Part shown: positions 27,408-39,678 of the stretch, one piece after another
Position numbering within the stretch: position 1 is the first letter of the stretch
How the letters are laid out: every line of letters begins with the position of its first letter
NCBI RefSeq assembly: GCF_030845175.1
Contig: NZ_CP132542.1
Coordinates: forward strand, 3,321,501 to 3,385,500
Length of the DNA: 64,000 nt
Direction: 5' to 3'
DNA from: Coralliovum pocilloporae
GTDB lineage: Bacteria > Pseudomonadota > Alphaproteobacteria > Rhizobiales > Cohaesibacteraceae
Made by a program: the position numbers and the translations under genes
Notes under the pieces: model-generated
The model's input: only the letters and a program-made list of their open reading frames with translations
Databases searched by the model: none
Told to the model about the DNA's origin: nothing

Positions 27408-27416
27408 TTGACTTCC

Positions 27417-30400
27417 ATGACGATTGCTCTGCCGCAGGACCTGTTTCGGATTTCAAACGGGATCACCTTCTCAAGCGTTCCCGATGGGGCCGAAGCGCGC
27501 ATGCTCGCCCAGCTGGCTCTGCATGGCCGGGGCGCGTGCTTTGTTGCGCGCGACAGCCAGCGAACCGCACAGATAGCTCAGGCCCTCAGATTCTACGCAC
27601 CAGAGCTGACTGTTCTGGATTTCCCTGCCTGGGATTGTCTGCCCTATGACCGTGTGTCACCCAACGCCGACATCATGGCACGGCGCATGACCACGCTCAG
27701 CCGTCTGTCGGAGAATGAAAACCTGCCGGACAATCTGATTATTCTCACAACGGCCAATGCAATCATCCAGAAAGTTCCGGGGCAGAGCGCAATCAGGCAA
27801 CGGGCCTGGTCAGCGGCAGCCGGAAATGTCATCGAGATGGATGATGTGGTCCGCTGGCTGGAGGATAATGGCTTCACCAGAACTCCAACCGTGAGGGAAA
27901 GTGGAGAATACGCGGTCCGTGGTGGCATTCTTGATCTCTTCGCGCCGGGGAAACCAGAGCCGATCAGGCTGGATTTCTTCGGTGATACACTTGAATCGAT
28001 CCGCACCTTTGACGCGGAAACCCAGCGGACAATCGGCCAAGTTCCAAGCGTAGACCTGATTGCTGCCGGTGAAGCCATCCTTGATGAAGACTCAATCAAA
28101 CGGTTCAGGCGCGCTTATGTGAAGGCCTTTGGCGCAGCCCAGAAGGATGATGCACTCTACCAGGCCATTTCAGAAGGCCGCCGCTATGCGGGTATGGAGC
28201 ACTGGCTCGGTTTCCTTAGCGATGATCTGGTTCCATTCTCAACCTTCCTTGGGGAAAGACCAATCATCCTTGATCACCTGGGAGAAGACGCCGTTGCTGA
28301 GCGGCTGGATCAGATCAAGGACCATTATGAAGCCCGGCTCGATTCTCTGGAGCGGGATCAGACCGGCCTTGTCCCTTACAAGCCGGCGCCGCCAGAGAGC
28401 CTCTTTCTGCGCGAGGAAGACTGGAAAGCGCTTCTGGCGGACCATCCCAATGTTACCCTCTCTCGATTGGCCGTACCGGAGACTAACGATCGCCCGGTTC
28501 ATGATTTCGCCGGACGGCAAGGCCGATCCTTTGCAGCGGAGCGAACCGCCGGTGACGTCAACGTCTTTGACGCACTGATTGAGCACCTCTCAACGCTGAG
28601 GAAAACCGGCTCCCGTGTGATTATCGCCTGTTGGTCTGAGGGAACCCGAGAGCGTATGGCTCAGGTTCTGGCAGACCATGGCCTTGAGCGCCTGAAGCCG
28701 ATTGATAGCTGGGAAGGTCTGGACAGCCTTGAGAAGGGCATGACAGCTCTTGCAGTTCTGCAGGTGGAAAGCGGATTTCTGTTTGACGGAACAGCAGTTA
28801 TTGCGGAGCAGGATATTCTCGGTGACCGGCTGGTTCGACAACGTAAAAAACGCAAAAAGGCCTCTGAATTCCTCACCGAAGCCACATCGCTCTCGGAAGG
28901 AGACCTGATCGTCCATGTGGAACACGGTGTCGGACGCTTTGTCGGCCTGAAAACCATTGAAGCTGCAGGCGCACCCCATGACTGTCTTGAACTGGTCTAT
29001 CATGGCGGCGACAAACTGTTTCTGCCGGTTGAAAACATCGAACTGCTGTCCCGCTATGGCTCGGAAGATACAGAAGCCCAGCTCGATAAGCTTGGCGGTG
29101 TTGCCTGGCAGGCCAAGAAAGCAAAACTCAAGCAGCGCATCCGCGAGATTGCCGATAACCTGATCAAGGTAGCTGCAGCCCGTGCCCTGAAAACCGCTCC
29201 CAAGATCCTTGCACCGGAAGGTGTCTATGACGAATTCGCGGCGCGGTTCCCGTTCGAAGAAACCGACGATCAGCTCAATGCTATCGATTCCATCTTTGAG
29301 GATCTGTCCTCCGGTCGGCCGATGGACCGCCTGATTTGTGGTGATGTGGGTTTTGGAAAGACCGAGGTTGCTCTCAGAGCTGCATTCCTCGCTGCCATGA
29401 GCGGCAGGCAGGTTGCCGTTGTAGTGCCAACCACTCTGCTGGCCCGCCAGCACTATCGCACATTTGCAGAACGGTTCAGCGGCCTGCCCATCAATGTGGC
29501 CCAGGCCTCACGGCTGGTGGGTTCCTCGGAGCTCTCCAAGACCAAGAAAGGCGTAGCAGACGGCACGGTAGATATTGTCATCGGCACCCATGCACTTCTT
29601 GGCAAATCCATCTCGTTCCGCGATCTCGGGCTTCTGATCATTGATGAAGAGCAGCATTTCGGCGTCAAGCACAAGGAACGTCTGAAAGAGCTGAAGTCCG
29701 ATGTGCATGTACTGACCCTGTCAGCGACGCCAATCCCCCGGACGCTGCAGCTGGCCCTGACCGGGGTGCGTGAGCTGTCACTCATCGCAACGCCCCCTGT
29801 GGATCGCCTGGCCGTACGAACCTTCTTCTCGCCTTTTGACCCTCTGATCGTTCGCGAAGCCCTGCTGCGTGAGCGTTATCGTGGGGGGCAGTCTTTCTAT
29901 GTCTGCCCCAGGGTTTCCGATCTGGCAGAGACCAGAGCTTTTCTTGAAGAGCACGTGCCTGAAGTGAAAGTGGCTGTAGCCCATGGCCAGATGCCGGCAG
30001 GGGAGCTCGATGACATCATGAATGCCTTCTATGAGGGCAAATACGATGTCTTGCTGTCCACGACCATTGTGGAGTCCGGGATTGATATCCCGACAGCCAA
30101 CACGCTGATTGTCCACCGCGCCGACATGTTTGGTCTCGCACAGCTCTATCAGCTGCGCGGGCGTGTGGGACGATCAAAGGTCCGGGCCTATTCCCTGTTC
30201 ACCGTTCCGGCCCGCAAGAAGCTGACCGTGACCGCAGAGCGTCGCCTGAAAGTTCTCCAGTCACTTGATACGCTTGGCGCCGGGTTCCAGCTCGCAAGTC
30301 ATGATATGGATATTCGCGGGGCGGGGAACCTGCTTGGTGAGGAGCAGTCCGGCCATATCAAGGAAGTCGGTTATGAGCTGTACCAGCAGATGCTGGAAGA

Positions 30401-30914
30401 AGCCGTAGCCAGCCTGAAGGCCGGTGACGGGTTTGAACTTGAAGAGCAGTGGTCGCCGCAGATCACTGTCGGCACACCGGTAATGATCCCGGAAGTCTAT
30501 GTGCCGGATCTCCAGCTGCGCCTTGGCCTCTACAAACGCCTGTCTGACCTGACGGAGCCAGGCGACATTGATGCCTTCGGAGCCGAGCTGATCGATCGTT
30601 TTGGACCTTTGCCGGAAGAAGTCGACCATCTGTTGAAAATCGTATTCGTCAAAGGTCTTTGCCGCAAAGCCAATGTGGAGAAGATCGATGCCGGTCCAAA
30701 GGGTATCGTCGTCACCTTCCGGAACGGCGAATACGCCAACCCGGTTGGTCTTGTGCGCTTTATTACAGAGCAGGGGACCCTGGCCAAAATCCGTCCGGAT
30801 CAGAAATTGGTTCTCATGCGCGACTGGCCAACGCCAGAGAAACGACTGAAGGGAACAGCCGTTATCCTCTCTCGCCTCGCAAAGATGGCAGAAGAATCCG
30901 ACGCTGCCGCGTAA
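27417..30914 (+). CDS. mfd: Transcription-repair coupling factor Mfd
   Basis: Large DNA translocase that removes RNA polymerase stalled at lesions and recruits UvrA. The protein has 1165 residues from ATG 27417; an in-frame TTG at 27408 would add three. It has an N-terminal UvrB-homology region (DFPAWDCLPYDR), a CarD-like RNA-polymerase-interaction domain (DLIVHVEHGVGRF, LFLPVENIELLSRYG), then RecG-like helicase domains with GDVGFGKTE, DEEQHFGVKHKE, TATPIPRT and QLRGRVGRS, and the C-terminal TRCF domain. The architecture is complete. Confidence 0.97.
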   Translation: MTIALPQDLFRISNGITFSSVPDGAEARMLAQLALHGRGACFVARDSQRTAQIAQALRFYAPELTVLDFPAWDCLPYDRVSPNADIMARRMTTLSRLSENENLPDNLIILTTANAIIQKVPGQSAIRQRAWSAAAGNVIEMDDVVRWLEDNGFTRTPTVRESGEYAVRGGILDLFAPGKPEPIRLDFFGDTLESIRTFDAETQRTIGQVPSVDLIAAGEAILDEDSIKRFRRAYVKAFGAAQKDDALYQAISEGRRYAGMEHWLGFLSDDLVPFSTFLGERPIILDHLGEDAVAERLDQIKDHYEARLDSLERDQTGLVPYKPAPPESLFLREEDWKALLADHPNVTLSRLAVPETNDRPVHDFAGRQGRSFAAERTAGDVNVFDALIEHLSTLRKTGSRVIIACWSEGTRERMAQVLADHGLERLKPIDSWEGLDSLEKGMTALAVLQVESGFLFDGTAVIAEQDILGDRLVRQRKKRKKASEFLTEATSLSEGDLIVHVEHGVGRFVGLKTIEAAGAPHDCLELVYHGGDKLFLPVENIELLSRYGSEDTEAQLDKLGGVAWQAKKAKLKQRIREIADNLIKVAAARALKTAPKILAPEGVYDEFAARFPFEETDDQLNAIDSIFEDLSSGRPMDRLICGDVGFGKTEVALRAAFLAAMSGRQVAVVVPTTLLARQHYRTFAERFSGLPINVAQASRLVGSSELSKTKKGVADGTVDIVIGTHALLGKSISFRDLGLLIIDEEQHFGVKHKERLKELKSDVHVLTLSATPIPRTLQLALTGVRELSLIATPPVDRLAVRTFFSPFDPLIVREALLRERYRGGQSFYVCPRVSDLAETRAFLEEHVPEVKVAVAHGQMPAGELDDIMNAFYEGKYDVLLSTTIVESGIDIPTANTLIVHRADMFGLAQLYQLRGRVGRSKVRAYSLFTVPARKKLTVTAERRLKVLQSLDTLGAGFQLASHDMDIRGAGNLLGEEQSGHIKEVGYELYQQMLEEAVASLKAGDGFELEEQWSPQITVGTPVMIPEVYVPDLQLRLGLYKRLSDLTEPGDIDAFGAELIDRFGPLPEEVDHLLKIVFVKGLCRKANVEKIDAGPKGIVVTFRNGEYANPVGLVRFITEQGTLAKIRPDQKLVLMRDWPTPEKRLKGTAVILSRLAKMAEESDAAA

Positions 30915-30928
30915 GAACCAGGCTCTTA

Positions 30929-31570
30929 CTACTGTTCGGATGCAGCCTTGCGGATCATTTCCGCAAGAGCCTGCGGGTCTTGCGCACCCATAAGGCCGAA
31001 TTTCTGATCCGCAATAAAGCAGGGCACACCGGTCACGCCTATCTGTTGTGCATGACTGACCTGGGCTTTCACCGCTTCAAGGTCCTTGTCACTTTCGAGC
31101 AGATCACGAACCAGGACACCATCCATGCCCACATGCTCTGCTGCAGCGACCAGCACATCATGCTGGGTGAGGTCTGCGCCCTGTTCAAAGAAGAGCTGAA
31201 ACAGATGTTCGACCAGTGCATTTTGCTTGCCGGTGGACTGTGCCCAATGGATCAGGCGATGGCAGTCGAGCGTATTGGGAGATTTCTCGATTTTATCGAA
31301 GGCAAAGTCGATCCCTTCGTACTGTCCGGCTTCCTCAATACGTGCGTAAACCTCACGAGCCCGGGCCTTACCGCCAAACTTGTTGCTCAGATAAGTCTGC
31401 CGGTCCATGCCTTCTGAAGGAATTGTCTGGTCAAGCTGATAAGGACGCCACTGGACGTCAACCTGAATATCGTCAATCTGATCAAGCGCCTTTTCCAGAC
31501 GTCGCATACCCACATAACACCAGGGGCACATCACATCAGAGACAACATCCAGCGAAACTGTTTTCATCAT
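30929..31570 (-). CDS. DsbA-family oxidoreductase (FrnE-like)
   Basis: Thioredoxin-fold protein of about 213 residues with the CPWC redox site in VVSDVMCPWCYVGMRRLEKA and the C-terminal cis-proline region GVTGVPCFIADQKFGLMGAQ. There is no signal peptide, so it is probably cytoplasmic, as in the FrnE / 2-hydroxychromene-2-carboxylate isomerase-like group. The start is one of two adjacent ATGs (31570, 31567); GGGAGAAG is just upstream. It converges with mfd. Confidence 0.88.
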   Translation of the reverse strand: MMKTVSLDVVSDVMCPWCYVGMRRLEKALDQIDDIQVDVQWRPYQLDQTIPSEGMDRQTYLSNKFGGKARAREVYARIEEAGQYEGIDFAFDKIEKSPNTLDCHRLIHWAQSTGKQNALVEHLFQLFFEQGADLTQHDVLVAAAEHVGMDGVLVRDLLESDKDLEAVKAQVSHAQQIGVTGVPCFIADQKFGLMGAQDPQALAEMIRKAASEQ

Positions 31571-31760
31571 TCTTCTCCCAGCCTGTTGGCTCGACATATA
31601 GTAAGCTCATTTCAAGGATACAAATCGCGTTCCTGTTATTTCTGCCGAAGATCAGCCTTTTTTAAGGAAATTACCTCATAATTATTCTTGAAATCTTGGA
31701 GAGAACTACTGGGTAAGCAGAGATCTGTTCAACAGATTCGAGATTGTGTTGGGGGAACAA

Positions 31761-34031
31761 ATGCAGTCCGTCGATTCCGGAAGCATTTCAGGGAAAACAC
31801 CTGAACTGAAAGATGGCGAATCCGCATCCTTTCAGGAACGAAGACTGGGACGAGCTGTCGAGGCTCTTACTGCCATCTCTGCTCCCAGCAAATCCAGCGC
31901 TGATTTCTTCGCAACATGTGTTCAACAGCTGGCCAAGGCCTATGGAACACGTTTTGCCTTTATCGGGTTGTTTGATGAAAACGCCCAAAAGACACAGGTT
32001 ACGACCATAGCGGGTTTTGCCAATGGCGAGCTTATCCCGTCTGTGACCTATCCGCTTTATGGCTCTCCCTGTCAGGATGTTCTCTGCGTCAAGAAAGTTT
32101 TTATCCCCGATGGTCTGATGGAACGCTATCCTGAAGATGAACTTCTGATCGAGATGAAACTTGAGAGCTATTTTGGCTCTGCCCTGACGGATCCTTCTGG
32201 TGAGCCGATCGGACTGGTGATTATTACAGATACGGAGCCGATGTCGCCGGACAGCTGGAATGATCCGCTGCTCGATCTTTTTGCAGACCGGATCTCATAC
32301 GAACTGGAGCGCGCGCAGGCAGAAGAAGAACTGCGCCTGGCCGCCAGTGTTTTTCAGGGCAGCCATGATGGTGTGCTGATCATGGAGCCTGACTGGACGA
32401 TCCGGAAGGTCAATCAGGCTTTCGAGGACATGACGGGCTGGACCGAACGTGAAGTGCTCGGTGAACATGCTCTCTTGCTTCGATCGGAACGTCACGATGA
32501 CAAGTTCTTTCGCGACAAGACCATACAGCTTCTGAAAACCGGATTCTGGCGGGAGGATGTCTGGATTACCCAGAAGAACCGGAAAATCTTGCCCGTACGC
32601 TGCTCTGTCACAGCAGTGAAGGACCCGGTCAAGGATCAGATTGTTCATTACGTCATGATGATCACTGACATTTCGGAAAAGAAATATGCCGAACAGCGTA
32701 TCCAACGCCTGGCTTATTTTGACACGATTACCGAGTTGCCCAACCGAACCCATTTCATCGAGAGACTGAACCGGACCCTTGGCAAGAGCAGAAACACAGA
32801 GCGTCCTCTGTCTGTCATGCTGCTTGATCTTGACGGGTTCAAAGCTGTCAATGACCGTCTGGGGCATAGCGGCGGTGACAAGCTTCTTTCAGCTGTTGGC
32901 GATCGCCTGCTCAGTCTGTCTTCCGAAGACTGCTTCTGCGCGCGCCTTGGTGGAGATGAATTTGCTGTACTTTTCCAGTCACCAGACCAGAATCGCGATT
33001 CTGTGGACCAAATGGCCGCAAGCATCGTTCAGCTGCTCTCTGAGCCCTATATCCTTGATGGAGAAACTGAAACTGTATCCGCCAGCATCGGCATCGCCTG
33101 CTATCCAAAGCATGGCAAGGATGCCCAGAGTCTGATGCGCAATGCCGATCTCGCGACCTATCATGCCAAGGCACAGGGGCGAAATCGTTTTGAGCACTAC
33201 CATGACGAACTCTGTGAGAAGGCTGAAAAGGCTGCCGCATTGCAGGCCCTGCTGCGCTGTGCCATTTCAAAAGACCAGTTCCGTATGGCCTATCAGACCA
33301 GACATTGCGTCGGGACTGGAAAACTGATCGGCTCTGAAGCACTTCTGCGTTGGCAGCTGGATGATGGCGCTCATATCAGCCCGGCACAGTTCATTCCGAT
33401 TGCCGAGGAAACCGGCCTGATTGAGCCAATCGGCGATTGGGTTTTAACAACGGTTTTCCATCAGCTGTCTGAATGGAACAGGGTGGGGGTCTCCTCTGGC
33501 ATGACCTCTATCAACGTGTCAGGGCGCCAGCTCCTCAGCCCCGAGTTTTCATCCAAACTTGCCAGTCTCGTCAAAGAAACGGGTGTTGCCCCTGGACAGG
33601 TCGAGCTTGAGATTACCGAAACCTGGCTTATGGAAGACCCCAATCGGTCCGTAGACCTTTTGCGCAGCCTCAAGGCGATGGGTTTCAAACTGGCCATTGA
33701 TGATTTCGGTGTTGCCTATTCGTCCATGAACTATCTGAAGCACTTCCCGATTGATACGATCAAGATTGACCGGAGCTTTACGCGGGACATCAACACCGAA
33801 GAGAACAGTCTCGCAATCATATCGGCCATCGTTGCCATGGGGCGTAGTCTTGGGCTCAACGTGCTGGCTGAAGGCGTGGAAACAGAAGCCCAGCTTAAGA
33901 CGCTCCACTCAACCGGATGCGATGAATGCCAGGGCTACTATTTCTCCAGGCCCATGGCGGAAGAAGAATTCACAGCGCTTCTGAACAATGGTCATGCAGT
34001 TATGCCGAAGCGCAGCCTGCTCGGCTCATAA
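31761..34031 (+). CDS. GAF-PAS-GGDEF-EAL cyclic-di-GMP signalling protein
   Basis: Predicted cytoplasmic bifunctional c-di-GMP enzyme of 756 residues. A GAF domain lies at about 40-190, a PAS domain with PAC tail at about 195-310, a GGDEF domain with an intact G397-G-D-E-F401 and an EAL domain with E526-A-L and LAEGVETEAQL. Both catalytic signatures are present, so synthesis, breakdown or both are possible. No membrane segment is seen. ATG 31761 follows GGGGGAA closely; a TTG at 31746 is also in frame. Its 3' end overlaps by 32 bases the 3' end of the convergent receiver-protein gene, itself a degenerate GGDEF protein. Confidence 0.93.
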   Translation: MQSVDSGSISGKTPELKDGESASFQERRLGRAVEALTAISAPSKSSADFFATCVQQLAKAYGTRFAFIGLFDENAQKTQVTTIAGFANGELIPSVTYPLYGSPCQDVLCVKKVFIPDGLMERYPEDELLIEMKLESYFGSALTDPSGEPIGLVIITDTEPMSPDSWNDPLLDLFADRISYELERAQAEEELRLAASVFQGSHDGVLIMEPDWTIRKVNQAFEDMTGWTEREVLGEHALLLRSERHDDKFFRDKTIQLLKTGFWREDVWITQKNRKILPVRCSVTAVKDPVKDQIVHYVMMITDISEKKYAEQRIQRLAYFDTITELPNRTHFIERLNRTLGKSRNTERPLSVMLLDLDGFKAVNDRLGHSGGDKLLSAVGDRLLSLSSEDCFCARLGGDEFAVLFQSPDQNRDSVDQMAASIVQLLSEPYILDGETETVSASIGIACYPKHGKDAQSLMRNADLATYHAKAQGRNRFEHYHDELCEKAEKAAALQALLRCAISKDQFRMAYQTRHCVGTGKLIGSEALLRWQLDDGAHISPAQFIPIAEETGLIEPIGDWVLTTVFHQLSEWNRVGVSSGMTSINVSGRQLLSPEFSSKLASLVKETGVAPGQVELEITETWLMEDPNRSVDLLRSLKAMGFKLAIDDFGVAYSSMNYLKHFPIDTIKIDRSFTRDINTEENSLAIISAIVAMGRSLGLNVLAEGVETEAQLKTLHSTGCDECQGYYFSRPMAEEEFTALLNNGHAVMPKRSLLGS

Positions 34032-35238
34032 GTGTCTCAGGCGTATCCCCGGGGACGGCAATCGCATAGCCTTCCTCAATGTGATATTCCGCGCCACCAT
34101 CATTACGTTGCAAGGAATCCAGGCTGGCCTGCAGGATTGAATAGAGCCGCGTGGAAACCTGCTCCAGATTCGAGACTTCACGTTTTCTGATCGCCACCAG
34201 AACTTCCTGATTTTCAAGGCGTGTATGACAGAAATCTACTGTCCGGGTCAGCAAGGGCACCATTCCCAGACACTGGTTCAGAACTGCCCTGTCCCAGCCA
34301 TCAGGGTCAACATCATTCATATCCGGCGCGACGGCAAACCTAAGCAGGCAGATATTTTCTTCAACCTGGAGGCATCGGGACAGGTATGCTTCAAAGAAAG
34401 TGTCACACTCGTCTGGCAGATCTGATGTTTTGAGGCTTTCCAGAAGAGCGCGTTCAATCCGGTAACGGTGGGACAAAATAGAAATAACCGCAACAAGTTC
34501 TGATGCCGGAAGCGTACTCGGAAACACATCAATCCCCGCATCAGGCGTTATGTCATCAGCATCTGACAGAATAATAACGGGGCGGGTTACATGACGCATA
34601 TCGCGCTTCAGAGTTCCAACCAGCTCGACGGCATCAAGGCCTGCCGTTTCCGATAAGAGAAGACAATCAAATGACTGACGTGCCGCAAGGTCTGAAACCT
34701 GGTCCGGCGTCATGGCCGTGATCACATCGGGACTGTCATCTTGCTCCAGAATGTCTTTCGGGTAGGGTCCCAATGCCAGAACAGACGTCTTGTCACGCTG
34801 AGCTGCAGCCGTTGGATCTAAAGCCTGCTGCTGCCCATCAACAATCGCCTGTCGGAAGAGCATCTCGTCAAGAAGCTCCAGATGACGGCGGCACTGCCGG
34901 ACAAACCAATTCAGCCGGGACGGTGACAATCCGCTCGGCAACCAGAACCAGTTGTCATTTTTGTCCCGGTCAAGATCGCGTATCCGTCGCGTCAGGATAA
35001 TGCCGACAAACGGATTCCGATCCATTGCCGGAGCAACCGATGTGAGATCACCGACAAGATCATCGGTCAGTGCTGTAGCATCAACAACAACCAGATCGGA
35101 TGAAGCGATGTCACGAAGGCACCCATCCTGACGAGCGTCTTCAGCACTGTAACGCCTGACATCATCGCTGTCGGCACCGAGTGTGGCAGCAACTTCATCA
35201 CTGACACCAATACAAATGGTTTTTCCAGCCACCGGCAT
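34000..35238 (-). CDS. Double receiver-like protein with degenerate GGDEF domain
   Basis: About 412 residues. Three domains can be inferred. The first is receiver-like (about 5-120), with DLVVVDATAL placing an aspartate near residue 53 at the phosphoacceptor position. The second is receiver-like (about 150-260), where FDCLLLSETAG puts Ser196 where an aspartate would be expected, followed by RPVIILSDADD. The C-terminal region (about 280-400) has the pattern of a GGDEF domain, but ENQEV (342-346) stands where GGDEF should be. The layout recalls PleD, but the domain cannot be an active diguanylate cyclase. ATG 35238 is used; GTG 35241 is also possible. It is eight bases downstream of the adenylate-forming homologue, same strand. 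The function is unknown. Confidence 0.75.
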   Translation of the reverse strand: MPVAGKTICIGVSDEVAATLGADSDDVRRYSAEDARQDGCLRDIASSDLVVVDATALTDDLVGDLTSVAPAMDRNPFVGIILTRRIRDLDRDKNDNWFWLPSGLSPSRLNWFVRQCRRHLELLDEMLFRQAIVDGQQQALDPTAAAQRDKTSVLALGPYPKDILEQDDSPDVITAMTPDQVSDLAARQSFDCLLLSETAGLDAVELVGTLKRDMRHVTRPVIILSDADDITPDAGIDVFPSTLPASELVAVISILSHRYRIERALLESLKTSDLPDECDTFFEAYLSRCLQVEENICLLRFAVAPDMNDVDPDGWDRAVLNQCLGMVPLLTRTVDFCHTRLENQEVLVAIRKREVSNLEQVSTRLYSILQASLDSLQRNDGGAEYHIEEGYAIAVPGDTPETLMSRAGCASA

Positions 35239-35246
35239 CACATCCT

Positions 35247-36908
35247 TCAGGCGCTGAACTGTCGGGTAAGGGCAGGGCGGACCACCGTCCCGTCTTCGGT
35301 TCGCGGAATTTTCCTGATGGCCCGAATAGAAGCAGGGGAGAGATGCGCGTCCAGTTCAATCTGGTTGATGTGATCTCGCAGTTCCTGCTCATCAAATTCA
35401 CAGCCGGGTTTCAGAACCACGGCAAGATGCAGGCGATCACCCAGAATAGGATCCGGCTGGCTGAAGAGAGCAGCATCCTTGAGACTGAAATGATCTGCAA
35501 TGGCTGCTTCAGACGCTGAAGCATGAACCGGGACACGTCCCATAACAAATTCACCGGACAGAACACCCGTGGGATGAACACCGGCATCTTCCACGCTGAC
35601 GAGATTGCAGCCAATGCCGGTGCGGATGTATCCATCCTCATTCACATGGCTTTCATCAAGTCCACCCTGTCGGTTGAAGGCGCCCTTTGGTATAGCCGGA
35701 CCACGACAGCAGAATTCTGCATCCCCCCGACCAAGCGCAACAGTGTCAGACCCCGGCGCCAGAGGAACGAGAGCCGTTTGCAGAAGGGGGACCATCCCGG
35801 ATGACCTGCTGCCTGTCACATCGCCAACCGGAAGAGGCGCGGGATTGTCCGGCTGGTCCTCAGCGCGCGAAGAGACAATCATCGTCCACTCACCCAGCAC
35901 AGTGACATCGGAGACCCTGTATCCCTTTGGCAGAGGTTCCGGCTGATCATGACGTCCGGGCCAGATAAGAGACAAGCCGAGATCCTCCCCGTCGTCACGC
36001 TCTTCGAGAAGCCCACCCAACGAGGCTGGCATGACCACATGAGAGGCTTCCGTTTCCCGCATCCGGCCAACAAACTGCCCGCCACTGGTAAAATGTCCCA
36101 GCTCCAGAACACCGGCAGACAGCAACCAGGGAAGAATAACCGGCCCCAGGCCGCCCATCAGACCGGGGTGCATAATGCTGAAAATTCTAGCCTTCTGCTC
36201 AATCCGCGCTTCCAGAAGGTGCTGGACACCTGTCGAGATCCACTGATTATGGCTACGAGGAATCAGAATGAGAGACCCGTCTGACGCATACTGAGGAGAC
36301 AGGGTAGCCACGTGATCCGCTGGAAGATCCTTCCGCTCTATCGGCGCTTCCATCCCGGCCAGGTCACCATCCCGGGCAATATCATCCAGAGGCACCAGAC
36401 CATCCGGCAGGTCTTTGCCAAAGCCAAACACAAAGCGCACATTGAACATCTCCGCAGCCGCATCGCGTGCTCGAAGGGCAGGGGTATCATCTTCAATCCG
36501 GGTACAGGTTATAATCGCCTTGGCGCTGGCCTCATCAATCAGGGTTTTAAGAGACCGGCCACGCAAGCTGAGAGAGACCGGAACCGCAATAAGTCCGGCC
36601 CGGAAGCAGGCAAACAGCGCACAGTAGAAATCAACTGTATTGGGTAGCTGGATGACAACCCGATCATCTGCTTTCAGTCCGAGGGAAGACATGAAAACAG
36701 ACAGCGCCTGGACGCGGCGTTCAAGCTGGCGATAGCTTATCACTTCAGGCGGCATGCCATTCCAGTGTTCCCTGTCGGGGGAATCTCTCAGCGCCACCTC
36801 ATCCGGGTTTGTTGCAGCATTCTTCCGCAGGATGATATCCAGTGGAACGCGCCCCCAAAGTCCGGCTGCAATATTTGCCTCTGATTCAGCCTTGTCATTC
36901 AGGATCAT
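35247..36908 (-). CDS. Acyl-adenylating (ANL) superfamily homologue with degenerate active-site motifs
   Basis: The protein has 553 residues with the overall layout of an AMP-dependent synthetase/ligase: SYRQLERRVQALS, VVIQLPNTVDFYCALFACFRAGLIAVPV, and a C-terminal lid with DAALFSQPDPILGDRLHLAVV. The catalytic motifs are lost. The phosphate-binding loop region (about 208-221) reads ASDGSLILIPRSHN with no lysine. The Y-x-x-TGD motif reads Y427-IRTG-I432, so the ATP-binding aspartate is missing. The PxxxxGK lysine near the end is Thr541 (PRTEDGT). It is probably a pseudoenzyme that may still bind an acyl or CoA ligand. GAGGGG lies nine bases before the ATG. It lies between a YejA-like gene and a receiver-like gene in one operon. 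Confidence 0.8.
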   Translation of the reverse strand: MILNDKAESEANIAAGLWGRVPLDIILRKNAATNPDEVALRDSPDREHWNGMPPEVISYRQLERRVQALSVFMSSLGLKADDRVVIQLPNTVDFYCALFACFRAGLIAVPVSLSLRGRSLKTLIDEASAKAIITCTRIEDDTPALRARDAAAEMFNVRFVFGFGKDLPDGLVPLDDIARDGDLAGMEAPIERKDLPADHVATLSPQYASDGSLILIPRSHNQWISTGVQHLLEARIEQKARIFSIMHPGLMGGLGPVILPWLLSAGVLELGHFTSGGQFVGRMRETEASHVVMPASLGGLLEERDDGEDLGLSLIWPGRHDQPEPLPKGYRVSDVTVLGEWTMIVSSRAEDQPDNPAPLPVGDVTGSRSSGMVPLLQTALVPLAPGSDTVALGRGDAEFCCRGPAIPKGAFNRQGGLDESHVNEDGYIRTGIGCNLVSVEDAGVHPTGVLSGEFVMGRVPVHASASEAAIADHFSLKDAALFSQPDPILGDRLHLAVVLKPGCEFDEQELRDHINQIELDAHLSPASIRAIRKIPRTEDGTVVRPALTRQFSA

Positions 36909-36945
36909 GATGTTCGCCCCTCACTCGTGACCCGCAATCTTTTCT

Positions 36946-38754
36946 TCACTTTGCCCACCATGTCATCGGTTGATAGCCATAGGCCGACGTCTGTTTAGGT
37001 CGTCCGATCCGGGCGGAACGGGCGACCCACTGTTCCCCTGCATGGAACAGCGGCACAACATAATATCCGGAGATCAGCACCCGATCGAGAGCACGTACAG
37101 CCGCTATAAACTCTTCCTCGCTTACAGCATTGAGCAAGGCATCGATCATCGCGTCAGCCGCAGGGTTTCGGACACCAGCCATGTTGAAAGAGCCCTGCAG
37201 GTCCGCGCTGTCGCTCCGCCAGCGGAAATTCTGCTCATTGCCGGGAGACAGAGATGCCGCATAGACAAACTGGATCATGTCAAAGTCAAAACTCTGACGC
37301 CGACGCTGATATTGCGCCGAATCCACGGTCCGGATCGTCATTTCGATTCCAAGCCGTTTCAGAACCTGCGCATAGGTGAGGGCCAGCTTTTCCTGCTCTG
37401 TCGACACAGCCATAAACTCGAAAGCCAGCGGTTCACCACTCACCTTGTGAACAAGCCGATTGGCCTTGCGGACATAACCGGCACTTTGAAGCAGAGACAG
37501 AGCAGTCCGCATATTCCGCCGGTCGCGACCACTGCCATCTGTCCGCGCCACCCGGTATGTGCCATCCATCACTTCGGGTGTGACCGCGTCGGGGAAATCC
37601 TTCAACAGAGCTTTCTCACCAGGATCAGCCGCCCGTTCCAAAGCGGACAACACAGAGCCATGGAAGTAACTTTCCGAGCGGGTGTAAAGGCCAAAATAGA
37701 GATTCTTGTTGATCCACTCAAAATCAAACAACAGAGCCAGGGCCTGTCTGACTTTTATGTCCTGAAAAACCGGTCTCCGTGTATTGAACACGAAACTGGC
37801 CATCGGCTTTGGCGTCCTGCTGGTAAAGCGATCCAGAACAACCCGGCCATCCTTGACAGCAGGAAAGCCATATCCATCAGACCAGCGTCCAGGGTCGCTT
37901 TCCGCATTCAGATCAAACAGGCCTTTCTTGAAGGCTTCAAACCGTGCCGAGCCGTCCCGATAATAATCGACAACAATCTCGTCGAAATTCGAAAACCCGC
38001 GCCGCACGGGCAGGTCTTTGCCCCAATAATCTGGGTCACGTTTCAGGATAATCCGTTTCCCCGGGTCAACACTGTCAACCTTATAAGGGCCGCTACCGGG
38101 AACGGCATCAAACGAGGTCTGGTCAAAGTTCTCCACGTCAATGGCATGTTTCGGCAGGACCGGCATCAATCCGATCAGCAGCGCCAGCTCCCGATCCGCC
38201 TTGCTGAAACGAAACAGAACCGTGTGCGTATCCTCCACTTCAACGCGCTCAACATTGCTGTAATAGATCCGGTAGTTCCCACGCCCTTTGGTTTTCAGGA
38301 GCTCAACCGTAAAAGCAACATCATCAGCAGTAATTGGCGTCCCGTCGGCAAAGCGGGCCTCGGGGCGCAAGCGGAACCGGATCCAGCGTCTGTCAGCAGC
38401 AGTTTCCACGCTTTCTGCCACAAGCCCGTAGAGTGCAAAGGCTTCATCACGATTACGCGCCAGAAGGCTGTCATAGACATTACGCCCGTACAAACCATCC
38501 CACAGCCCGCGAGGGGCCACACCTTTCGTAATGAACGGATTGAGGCTGTCGAACGTGCCAGTCATGGCATAAACAATGCGTCCGCCCTTTGGCGCATCAG
38601 GATTCGCATAAGGAAAGTGGGTAAAATCGGCGGGGAGCTTTGGCTCGCCATGCATGGCAATACCATGTGCGGGACCGTATGTTTCCTCGGAAATTGCTGT
38701 TCCCGCGGAAGCAACCATAAAGGCTGAAATAACAAGCAGTCTTAAAAACAGCAT
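36946..38754 (-). CDS. Extracellular solute-binding protein family 5, YejA-like
   Basis: Periplasmic peptide-binding protein of the oligopeptide/microcin C uptake type. The protein has 602 residues. The signal peptide MLFLRLLVISAFMVASAGTA has a likely cleavage just before EETYGPAHG. YejA-type landmarks are FPYANPDAPKGGRIVY, GTFDSLNPF, LAESVE-like VAESVETAADRRWIRFRLRP and GSGPYKV. ATG 38754 is preferred over a TTG at 38763. No permease or ATPase genes are next to it, unlike yejABEF, so it may be an orphan receptor. The 37-base gap to the ANL homologue suggests co-transcription. Confidence 0.9.
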   Translation of the reverse strand: MLFLRLLVISAFMVASAGTAISEETYGPAHGIAMHGEPKLPADFTHFPYANPDAPKGGRIVYAMTGTFDSLNPFITKGVAPRGLWDGLYGRNVYDSLLARNRDEAFALYGLVAESVETAADRRWIRFRLRPEARFADGTPITADDVAFTVELLKTKGRGNYRIYYSNVERVEVEDTHTVLFRFSKADRELALLIGLMPVLPKHAIDVENFDQTSFDAVPGSGPYKVDSVDPGKRIILKRDPDYWGKDLPVRRGFSNFDEIVVDYYRDGSARFEAFKKGLFDLNAESDPGRWSDGYGFPAVKDGRVVLDRFTSRTPKPMASFVFNTRRPVFQDIKVRQALALLFDFEWINKNLYFGLYTRSESYFHGSVLSALERAADPGEKALLKDFPDAVTPEVMDGTYRVARTDGSGRDRRNMRTALSLLQSAGYVRKANRLVHKVSGEPLAFEFMAVSTEQEKLALTYAQVLKRLGIEMTIRTVDSAQYQRRRQSFDFDMIQFVYAASLSPGNEQNFRWRSDSADLQGSFNMAGVRNPAADAMIDALLNAVSEEEFIAAVRALDRVLISGYYVVPLFHAGEQWVARSARIGRPKQTSAYGYQPMTWWAK

Positions 38755-39063
38755 ATGACCCAACCGGTTAGCGTACTGTCCAGAGAGAATCCGAGTGACC
38801 TTGAAGCGAGCTTATCAGATTCGCACGATCCGCATGTATTCCTCTGTAATCATGGGCAAAATCAGGCTCACAGGCTTTTCAACAAGATTAGCTATGGAAA
38901 TTGTCAGGAATACGCGATATTGAGGCCGGGTTCGCATGCTCTGAAAATCGCGCCACCCTGTTGCCGCAATTGACGTGCATCGAGCCCTGAAGTGATACAG
39001 GCAAACACTATGGTATGCCCGTATCAGACTTACTTCCGTCGGAATTCAAGGAACAGTGTTTCT
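38755..39063. other. Divergent intergenic region, yejA-like / ialB-like
   Basis: About 310 bases without a supported gene. It should hold the promoters for the yejA-like operon (leftward) and the IalB-like gene (rightward). One candidate rightward promoter is listed separately. An open frame from 38992 into the IalB gene would start inside that promoter, so it is not used. Confidence 0.5.
38970..38998 (+). promoter_or_regulatory. Candidate promoter for the IalB-like gene
   Basis: TTGACG (38970-38975) matches five of six bases of a sigma-70 -35 box. Seventeen bases later comes TGATAC (38993-38998), a weak -10 box. The predicted transcript would start near 39005, upstream of ATG 39064. Confidence 0.35.
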
Positions 39064-39678
39064 ATGACAAATATCACAACGACCGTTTCCCGGCTCACCG
39101 CAATCTTCTCCGCGACGCTTATGGCTGGCGCGTTTGCCGCCGGAACGGCTGCTGCTCAGGAAGCTGGTGCTCCGGGCTGGACCAAAATCTGTAACGTTGA
39201 TCAGAACAGCAAGAAAGAGATCTGCCTGACAACGCGAGAACTGCGTGCCCAGACAGGCCAGTTTCTTGCCTCTGTCGCGATCCGCGAGTTCAAAGGTGAA
39301 GCACGCAAGAGCCTGATCATTTCCGTTCCTCCTGGAATGTTGCTTGTACCAGGCCTGCGTTACCAGGTTGATGCCAACAAACAGGGCTCAGCCAATTATG
39401 GCATCTGCTTCCCGAACGCTTGTTATGCTGAAAAGGTCATTGATGACAGCTTCATTACCCAGCTCAAGAAGGGCAACAAGCTGGTCATCACCGCCCTGAA
39501 CCAGCGCGCCAAGGGTCAGAATTTCGAGCTGTCTCTCTCCGGTTTCACTAAGACCATTGAAGGTGACCCGGTCGATCCGAAAGTTCTGCAGGAACGCCAG
39601 AAGAAACTGCAGGAAGAACTGCAGCGCCGCGCTGAAGAGCAGCGCCAGAAACTTCTGCAGCAGCAAAACGCACAGTAA
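39064..39678 (+). CDS. Invasion associated locus B (IalB) family protein
   Basis: Predicted periplasmic or outer-membrane-associated protein of 204 residues. The signal peptide ends near AAGTAAAQ. The IalB domain has the four cysteines typical of the family (KICNVD, KEICLT, YGICFPNACYAEK), with APGWTKIC at its start. The C-terminal 35 residues are rich in Q, E and R and predicted to be coiled-coil. ATG 39064 follows AAGGA and fits the signal peptide; a start at 38992 would spoil it. In pathogens IalB aids host-cell entry; in environmental alphaproteobacteria the role is unclear. An intrinsic terminator follows. Confidence 0.9.
   Translation: MTNITTTVSRLTAIFSATLMAGAFAAGTAAAQEAGAPGWTKICNVDQNSKKEICLTTRELRAQTGQFLASVAIREFKGEARKSLIISVPPGMLLVPGLRYQVDANKQGSANYGICFPNACYAEKVIDDSFITQLKKGNKLVITALNQRAKGQNFELSLSGFTKTIEGDPVDPKVLQERQKKLQEELQRRAEEQRQKLLQQQNAQ

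Follow-up and report, generated by a model that had tools for sequence, protein, structure and literature searches.

A likely PopA-type candidate c-di-GMP receptor encoded in an operon with a periplasmic receptor and a pseudo-adenylase in Coralliovum pocilloporae

Introduction

A GGDEF domain with a degenerate catalytic site (A-site) and an intact allosteric site (I-site) marks receptors of cyclic di-GMP (c-di-GMP) such as PopA and SgmT, according to two papers (PMC3509222, PMC12564702). PopA of Caulobacter crescentus, encoded by CC1842, is an enzymatically inactive c-di-GMP effector (PMC3764195) and a PleD paralogue with a degenerate A-site and an RxxD I-site (PMC12564702); it links c-di-GMP to the protease ClpXP (PMC10212136), and RcdA acts together with it (PMC7200025). 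The locus described here lies in a 64,000-nucleotide stretch of Coralliovum pocilloporae (the window; contig NZ_CP132542.1, positions 3,321,501 to 3,385,500, forward strand), a genome assembled as a single contig of 3.92 Mb. It consists of three minus-strand genes for a periplasmic solute-binding protein (SBP), an ANL-fold protein lacking the usual adenylation motifs (pseudo-ANL) and a protein with two receiver domains and a degenerate GGDEF domain (RR). The last is likely a divergent, PopA-type candidate c-di-GMP receptor, in an operon with an SBP–pseudo-ANL pair that was never seen apart.

Orthologues of PopA are already known to be very divergent, as that of Hyphomonas neptunium is only 25% identical (PMC7200025), and Sinorhizobium meliloti, a model species of Hyphomicrobiales, is stated to lack PopA (PMC11500502). 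SgmT of Myxococcus xanthus has a GGDEF domain with a degenerate A-site and intact I-site and binds c-di-GMP (PMC3509222). A pairing of an active ANL domain with one of degenerate A5/A7 motifs is found in the FLD1-FLD2 tandem of DIP2 (PMC9342972). The literature searched for inactive acyl-CoA-synthetase regulators yielded no assigned role for an SBP–pseudo-ANL pair, that searched for popA with mfd or acyl-CoA synthetase yielded no mfd link, and a search for reports of PopA homologues returned only Bdellovibrio porin and mushroom genes. An earlier reading of the window from its letters (the sequence-only reading) knew of no described system of this composition; for the system throughout this is not supported, since its last member is most probably an orthologue of PopA.

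The RR Protein and its c-di-GMP Sites

RR is a 413 aa REC1-REC2-GGDEF protein and the putative PopA orthologue (34000-35241; coordinates within the three genes are all minus strand). The domains read from the letters were recovered by Pfam for SBP and pseudo-ANL; no Pfam model matched RR at E ≤ 1, and its relationship to PleD came from the profile search, in which PleD was the best PDB match. An AlphaFold model (pLDDT 77.3, pTM 0.76) gave only PleD chains as its ten best PDB matches, with global TM of 0.28-0.40, values so low that the model speaks for the individual domains and not for the way they are arranged. Structure prediction of pseudo-ANL and RR, proposed as a check, gave an ANL fold and PleD-type domains rather than unrelated folds. 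Two receiver-like domains, one without the phosphoacceptor aspartate, are indeed seen by eye and in the model: REC1 keeps D54 at that place (35080-35082; by eye, at the end of model strand 50-54, the automatic alignment column being a gap for the window), and REC2 has Ser (S197, by eye). The GGDEF motif does read ENQEV (343-347; 34201-34215), the equivalent of PleD GGEEF. The predicted I-site, RTVD (R333 and D336; 34234-34245), corresponds to PleD R359/D362, and R365 (34147-34149) to the secondary I-site Arg, PleD R390; the profile aligns the RxxD, A-site and later Arg of PleD with R333/D336, ENQEV and R365, in agreement with the PleD residue numbers that we take to be those of the I-site.

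Among 76 RR relatives of the order Hyphomicrobiales, window included, the I-site columns read R in 74/74, D in 72/74 and R in 74/74 rows with letters, and they hold ranks 1-3 by conservation among 146 scored GGDEF-domain columns. Thinning to below 60% identity left 41 RRs with much the same picture (R 39/39, D 37/39, R 39/39). A canonical A-site is present in 0/76 (2 have gaps there), as opposed to 24/24 PleD-like controls, all of which have A-site and I-site together, with GGEEF and the REC1 Asp likewise in 24/24; RR as a plain copy of PleD was rejected on this comparison. The controls are 7 loci set aside for having no adjoining SBP or pseudo-ANL (L090, L097, L098, L100, L101, L103 and L104; L102 and L236 are 100-base fillers) and 17 of 30 loci from other orders. 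As the I-site is kept and the A-site lost, RR probably reads c-di-GMP and does not make it. The tie to c-di-GMP drawn by the sequence-only reading is therefore upheld through the I-site, but not its direction, in which the protein would feed into c-di-GMP control. RR may serve as a clean example of a GGDEF domain in which the allosteric site is the most conserved part and the catalytic site has decayed.

Some features speak against RR as a PopA-type c-di-GMP receptor. The catalytic Glu of the A-site motif is kept in 6/76 RRs (e.g., SGSEF, GGQEF), the relatives are only 13-23% identical to the window RR, and the A-site is canonical in 2 of 12 RRs from other orders. These two are L274 (GGDEF), which lies beside DsbA, and L275 (SGEEF); as they keep a canonical A-site, the RR ancestor may still have been an active cyclase.

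Relationship to PopA

Gene order outside Hyphomicrobiales connects RR-type proteins with DsbA and Mfd. In 13 such loci, made up of high scorers together with L280, L282 and L281, which were added because a neighbour had been noticed or pseudo-ANL had been matched there, an RR-type protein lies beside DsbA and/or Mfd in 11; the other two are L275, an RR alone on a short contig, and L281, fetched for its ANL. Of 30 other-order loci taken as they came, 12 have DsbA or Mfd scoring >100 bits within about 1.5 kb, and the remaining 18 comprise the 17 PleD-like controls and L246, an RR-type protein with no such neighbour. Caulobacteraceae-like genomes (the G459 family, so called only from 65% PleD identity to the Caulobacter protein) have DsbA and/or Mfd next to the RR match in 23 of their 30 best loci, a flank of just about 1.5 kb being covered; G563 was rejected as Caulobacter, its PleD being 52% identical. 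For Caulobacter crescentus itself, popA is placed near mfd by the published gene numbers, CC1842 and CC1844 (PMC3764195; PMC1839093, Table 2). RcdA is also encoded in the window genome (PF07323, E 7.6e-58).

A 58-row tree, which contains Caulobacteraceae-like sequences and no named PopA, is split by a 100/100 branch that separates the 18 PleD rows from every RR row, whether of the order or of other orders, and from the Caulobacteraceae-like rows. Several of its details are unfavourable to orthology: the longest branch is that of the window RR (4.41 changes per column), whose attachment to the Caulobacteraceae-like rows has weak support (91/73), neither the Hyphomicrobiales RRs nor the other-order RRs form one clade, and the other-order row L282 sits next to PleD (92/93). 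On these grounds orthology is likely but not proven; RR is likely a highly divergent, fast-evolving PopA orthologue.

Conservation of the Locus

Three genes on one strand, as first reported, were confirmed by gene calls spanning 34000-38763. SBP and pseudo-ANL are separated by 37 bases, as had been stated, and pseudo-ANL and RR by 5; the earlier figure of 8 holds only if RR starts at its second Met. In relatives the order is IalB, then SBP–pseudo-ANL–(X)–RR–DsbA, then Mfd, though some loci lack one or more of these; X, encoded between pseudo-ANL and RR, is an ANL that looks active. The survey comprised 102 loci from 99 genomes (G047, G282 and G310 give two each), including 39 usable ANL-first loci picked from listed matches to spread over families and not at random. 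Pseudo-ANL is present in 95, and a same-strand SBP adjoins it in 95/95. These 95 loci hold RR in 69, X in 26, IalB in 86, Mfd in 62 and DsbA in 47, counts that are affected by the many fetched stretches ending at contig edges. In 3 of the 26 pseudo-ANL loci with no RR (L222-L224), the genome holds an RR elsewhere (L066, L055 and L063). Seven RR loci have no pseudo-ANL in the stretch; four of their genomes have pseudo-ANL elsewhere, and the other three (L064, L083, L086) come from unresolved drafts in which the stretch is short or truncated. The pseudo-ANL profile matches 195/397 genomes of the order at E ≤ 1e-60, neighbours being checked in part of these, and in a class-wide draw it matched 3/288 genomes besides the window's own. 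The trio is an old neighbourhood of Hyphomicrobiales.

Genomes without pseudo-ANL were sampled as the first 60 of the 202 with no match at E ≤ 1e-60. RR-profile matches were found in 50/60 (56 matches), and 10/60 had none at E ≤ 1e-25, a threshold below which a very divergent RR could fall. The 50 matches inspected all have a canonical GGEEF/GGDEF, and DsbA, Mfd, SBP and pseudo-ANL were all missing from the stretches around them; the six outside the inspected set are in G008, G042, G103, G117, G122 and G127. G056 and G093, also negative for pseudo-ANL, have a second REC-GGDEF protein with canonical GGEEF. The contrast of RR in 69/95 pseudo-ANL loci with 0/60 negative genomes gives a Fisher p of 2e-22, not corrected for phylogeny. 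In Hyphomicrobiales RR seems to need pseudo-ANL, and pseudo-ANL does not seem to need RR.

The neighbourhood search for pseudo-ANL and RR genes thus showed that they do occur together, and the idea of a single three-gene module survives in part: the genes travel together and SBP–pseudo-ANL is obligatory in the loci seen, but RR is not. The favoured interpretation is that SBP and pseudo-ANL together sense a ligand and either act on a PopA-like adaptor or work alongside it. It is possible, if somewhat unlikely, that RR as a PopA and the SBP–pseudo-ANL pair are instead independent functions lying side by side near mfd through vertical inheritance. The facts weighing on that side are that conservation extends to the flanking IalB (86/95) and Mfd (62/95), that RR is missing from the stretch in 26/95 pseudo-ANL loci, and that RR-type proteins stand with DsbA and Mfd, and no SBP–ANL, in other orders; because RR and SBP–ANL each occur without the other in this way, their link may be one of neighbourhood only. 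Against this stand the presence of RR in 69/95 pseudo-ANL loci, the degenerate RR found in 0 of 60 negative genomes (50 of 56 matches inspected), and the spacing of the window trio, 5 and 37 bases on one strand.

The SBP–Pseudo-ANL Pair

SBP (605 aa; 36946-38763) matches PF00496 (SBP_bac_5) at E 2.5e-70, with 237.9 bits against a gathering score of 32.4, so its description as a YejA-like receptor stands; its N terminus looks by eye like a signal peptide. The called gene has a TTG start at 38763, and the boundary first given, 38754, is an inner ATG. SBP is the third YejA-type copy in the genome and shares 40-41% identity with two tandem copies next to yejBEF-like genes, in a yejA-yejA-yejB-yejE-yejF-like cluster at G000:C1:1868600-1876300 (L120; names by eye and from SBP similarity), with the yejBEF-like genes at about 1.872-1.876 Mb. 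YejABEF is a peptide importer. The window gene list has no permease or ATPase gene of this type beside the SBP gene, which is regarded as an orphan third copy because the cluster sits elsewhere. The tandem pair would supply two receptors for one importer, besides the orphan copy. A 585-aa open frame runs antisense to SBP (36970-38727, plus strand) and is probably a by-product of codon usage.

Pseudo-ANL (553 aa; 35247-36908) has an aryl-acid-adenylase fold and matches AMP-binding (E 9.3e-23) and AMP-binding_C (E 2e-7) in Pfam. Its AlphaFold model (pLDDT 86.5, pTM 0.89) shows the two-domain ANL fold, with the salicylate-AMP ligase CahJ as best PDB match (TM 0.78-0.82), and the best PDB profile matches are aryl-acid AMP ligases (CahJ, DhbE, EntE, PchD). 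The P-loop (S/T)(S/G)G(T/S)(T/S)G is present in 0/95 pseudo-ANLs, window included, and the ribose-binding A7 TGD aspartate in 0/95 (2 of 95 being gaps). The lost P-loop site and the kept PRSHNQW stretch after it lie at 36240-36296; P217, R218, S219, H220 and N221 are invariant in 18 rows (alignment A5). At the place of the A10 catalytic lysine the window has Thr541 (codon 35286-35288). Loss of this lysine is not universal, as the column holds K in 11/95 and a gap in 10, and a version in which every pseudo-ANL had lost it was rejected. Pfam, the model and the motif columns together bear out the claim of an ANL fold lacking the usual ATP-binding and catalytic residues.

In the six closest pairs of a sister genus (10 loci), the ratio of nonsynonymous to synonymous change (dN/dS) is 0.03-0.07 for pseudo-ANL, 0.01-0.05 for RR and 0.05-0.15 for SBP. 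Pseudo-ANL and RR are thus under strong purifying selection there, the draw having held no genome of the window's own genus, and the low values mark them as maintained proteins and not decaying genes. The description of two pseudoenzymes is accurate in that their motifs are lost family-wide and both genes are maintained in the sister genus.

It is rather improbable that pseudo-ANL has stayed catalytic by way of a changed cofactor or chemistry. An intact fold in the model, strong purifying selection in the sister genus and Lys at the A10 column in 11/95 would suit such an enzyme, but the P-loop pattern and the A7 Asp are each found in 0/95, and in the window protein Thr stands where the A10 lysine would be.

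X has the appearance of an active enzyme, with the P-loop pattern and the PR...GK motif each in 25/28. Pseudo-ANL as a recent copy of X was rejected, since one X (L270) reaches 748 bits with the X profile but 84 bits with that of pseudo-ANL, and since X is nearest to PRK06187 and benzoate-CoA-ligase models (below cut-offs) and pseudo-ANL to aryl-AMP ligases. The closest match to X in the window genome lies away from the locus (G000:C1:1212480-1213964; L119:6448-7977) at 48% identity; it immediately follows a gene resembling 3-hydroxyacyl-CoA dehydrogenase, and a radical-SAM-like gene is close by (both named by eye). L075 and L099 have a 1.6-kb space between pseudo-ANL and RR with no full ANL frame, where their relatives carry X; X seems broken there, or the assembly is wrong.

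A scan of named contigs found close pseudo-ANL relatives in Rhodobium, Pseudovibrio, Siculibacillus, Prosthecomicrobium, a metagenome-assembled genome (MAG) of Cohaesibacteraceae and other MAGs of Hyphomicrobiales and Alphaproteobacteria; 18/77 loci (L123-L140) with at least 506 bits by the pseudo-ANL profile were taken as true, the other 59 scoring at most 417. The window genome itself belongs to Hyphomicrobiales and probably to Cohaesibacteraceae. ANLs with a PRSHN motif were seen in Sphingopyxis, Chloroflexota and others (L141-L199). Outside the order, L281 (G494) has a pseudo-ANL-type protein (E 2.8e-103); the contig is short and gave no SBP match.

Proposed Mechanism

The best explanation as a whole, which is on balance probable, if narrowly so, is that RR is a c-di-GMP-reading PopA orthologue and that SBP and pseudo-ANL are an obligatory ligand-sensing pair. 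RR, its A-site lost, would make no c-di-GMP and would bind it through R333, D336 and R365, as judged from the residues kept. By analogy with PopA, which does so for ClpXP with RcdA, the c-di-GMP-bound RR may then present a partner, thereby serving as a c-di-GMP-gated adaptor or scaffold. From these features we infer c-di-GMP binding, PopA orthology and a protease-adaptor role.

In Hyphomicrobiales the SBP–pseudo-ANL pair would have joined the RR locus. SBP would capture a periplasmic ligand, probably a peptide, which is perhaps handed to YejBEF. The cytoplasmic pseudo-ANL, without normal ATP use, would sense a ligand or serve for docking, with an effect on RR and, at loci that encode the active ANL X between the two, also on X; the identity of the ligand and the contact of pseudo-ANL with RR are guesses. 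A bolder version, to which only a low probability is given, is that in much of Hyphomicrobiales an orphan YejA-type receptor and a pseudo-adenylase sensing an acyl, aryl or peptide ligand license a PopA-type adaptor, tying c-di-GMP-gated proteolysis via PopA to a chemical cue from outside, such that the choice of cell-cycle regulator to be degraded depends jointly on c-di-GMP and on nutrient or signal uptake. If many Hyphomicrobiales families do have a hidden, divergent PopA, c-di-GMP/ClpXP control would extend to them, and candidate strains for testing it would become available.

Neighbouring Genes

The IalB-family gene (38992-39678, plus strand; PF06776, E 7.9e-29) is the divergent conserved flank present at 86/95 pseudo-ANL loci. 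On the other side lie a DsbA-type thioredoxin-fold gene (30929-31597, minus strand; PF01323, E 1e-46), a frequent neighbour of RR-type genes in the class, and the syntenic anchor and conserved neighbour mfd (27408-30914, plus strand), a DNA-repair gene named from a reading of its sequence. The window contains promoter-like matches at chance level (3 vs. a mean of 3.0 in the promoter scan) and terminator-like matches above chance (10 vs. 4.6, sd 2.3), with no minus-strand terminator-like match within either intergenic gap of the trio.

The gene converging on RR (31746-34031, plus strand) overlaps the RR 3' end by 32 bp (34000-34031) and lies between RR and the DsbA and Mfd genes, an arrangement that the relatives examined do not share. 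Of the GAF-PAS-GGDEF-EAL enzyme described by the sequence-only reading, the convergence and the PAS, GGDEF and EAL domains are confirmed by Pfam and gene calls, but no GAF model matched at E ≤ 1. It looks window-specific and was judged to be outside the module, since no match above 82 bits was found in 63 loci (55 module loci, 7 PleD-like loci and 1 filler). The scheme that had made it part of the system, in which a periplasmic ligand signal would pass via the two pseudoenzymes into this enzyme and set c-di-GMP, is very improbable: the gene does have PAS, GGDEF and EAL matches, but those 63 loci hold no match to it above 82 bits, and the conserved I-site of RR appears to be the mark of a c-di-GMP reader.

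Comparison with Known Systems

In comparing RR to PopA (CC1842), both share REC-REC-GGDEF, a degenerate A-site, and the RxxD and secondary Arg; mfd is nearby in both cases (in Caulobacter by gene number, in RR relatives by locus), and RcdA is present in both genomes. The two differ in that identity is very low, that RR lies in an operon with SBP and pseudo-ANL, and that the window RR is parted from DsbA and Mfd by the GGDEF-EAL gene. PleD shares REC-REC-GGDEF and is the best PDB match by profile and by fold; however, PleD-like controls keep GGEEF and the REC1 Asp, whereas RRs of the order have no canonical A-site. SgmT differs as a histidine kinase with a GAF domain and not REC-REC-GGDEF. The window SBP resembles YejABEF as an SBP_bac_5 protein in a genome with a yej-like cluster elsewhere, but is without adjoining permease genes. 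Pseudo-ANL shares the fold of the aryl-acid AMP ligases CahJ, DhbE, EntE and PchD, while its family has neither the P-loop pattern nor the A7 Asp in 95/95. The nearest parallel for X with pseudo-ANL, side by side in 26/95 loci, is DIP2 of eukaryotes, which differs in being one polypeptide, eukaryotic, FAAL-derived and without a c-di-GMP protein.

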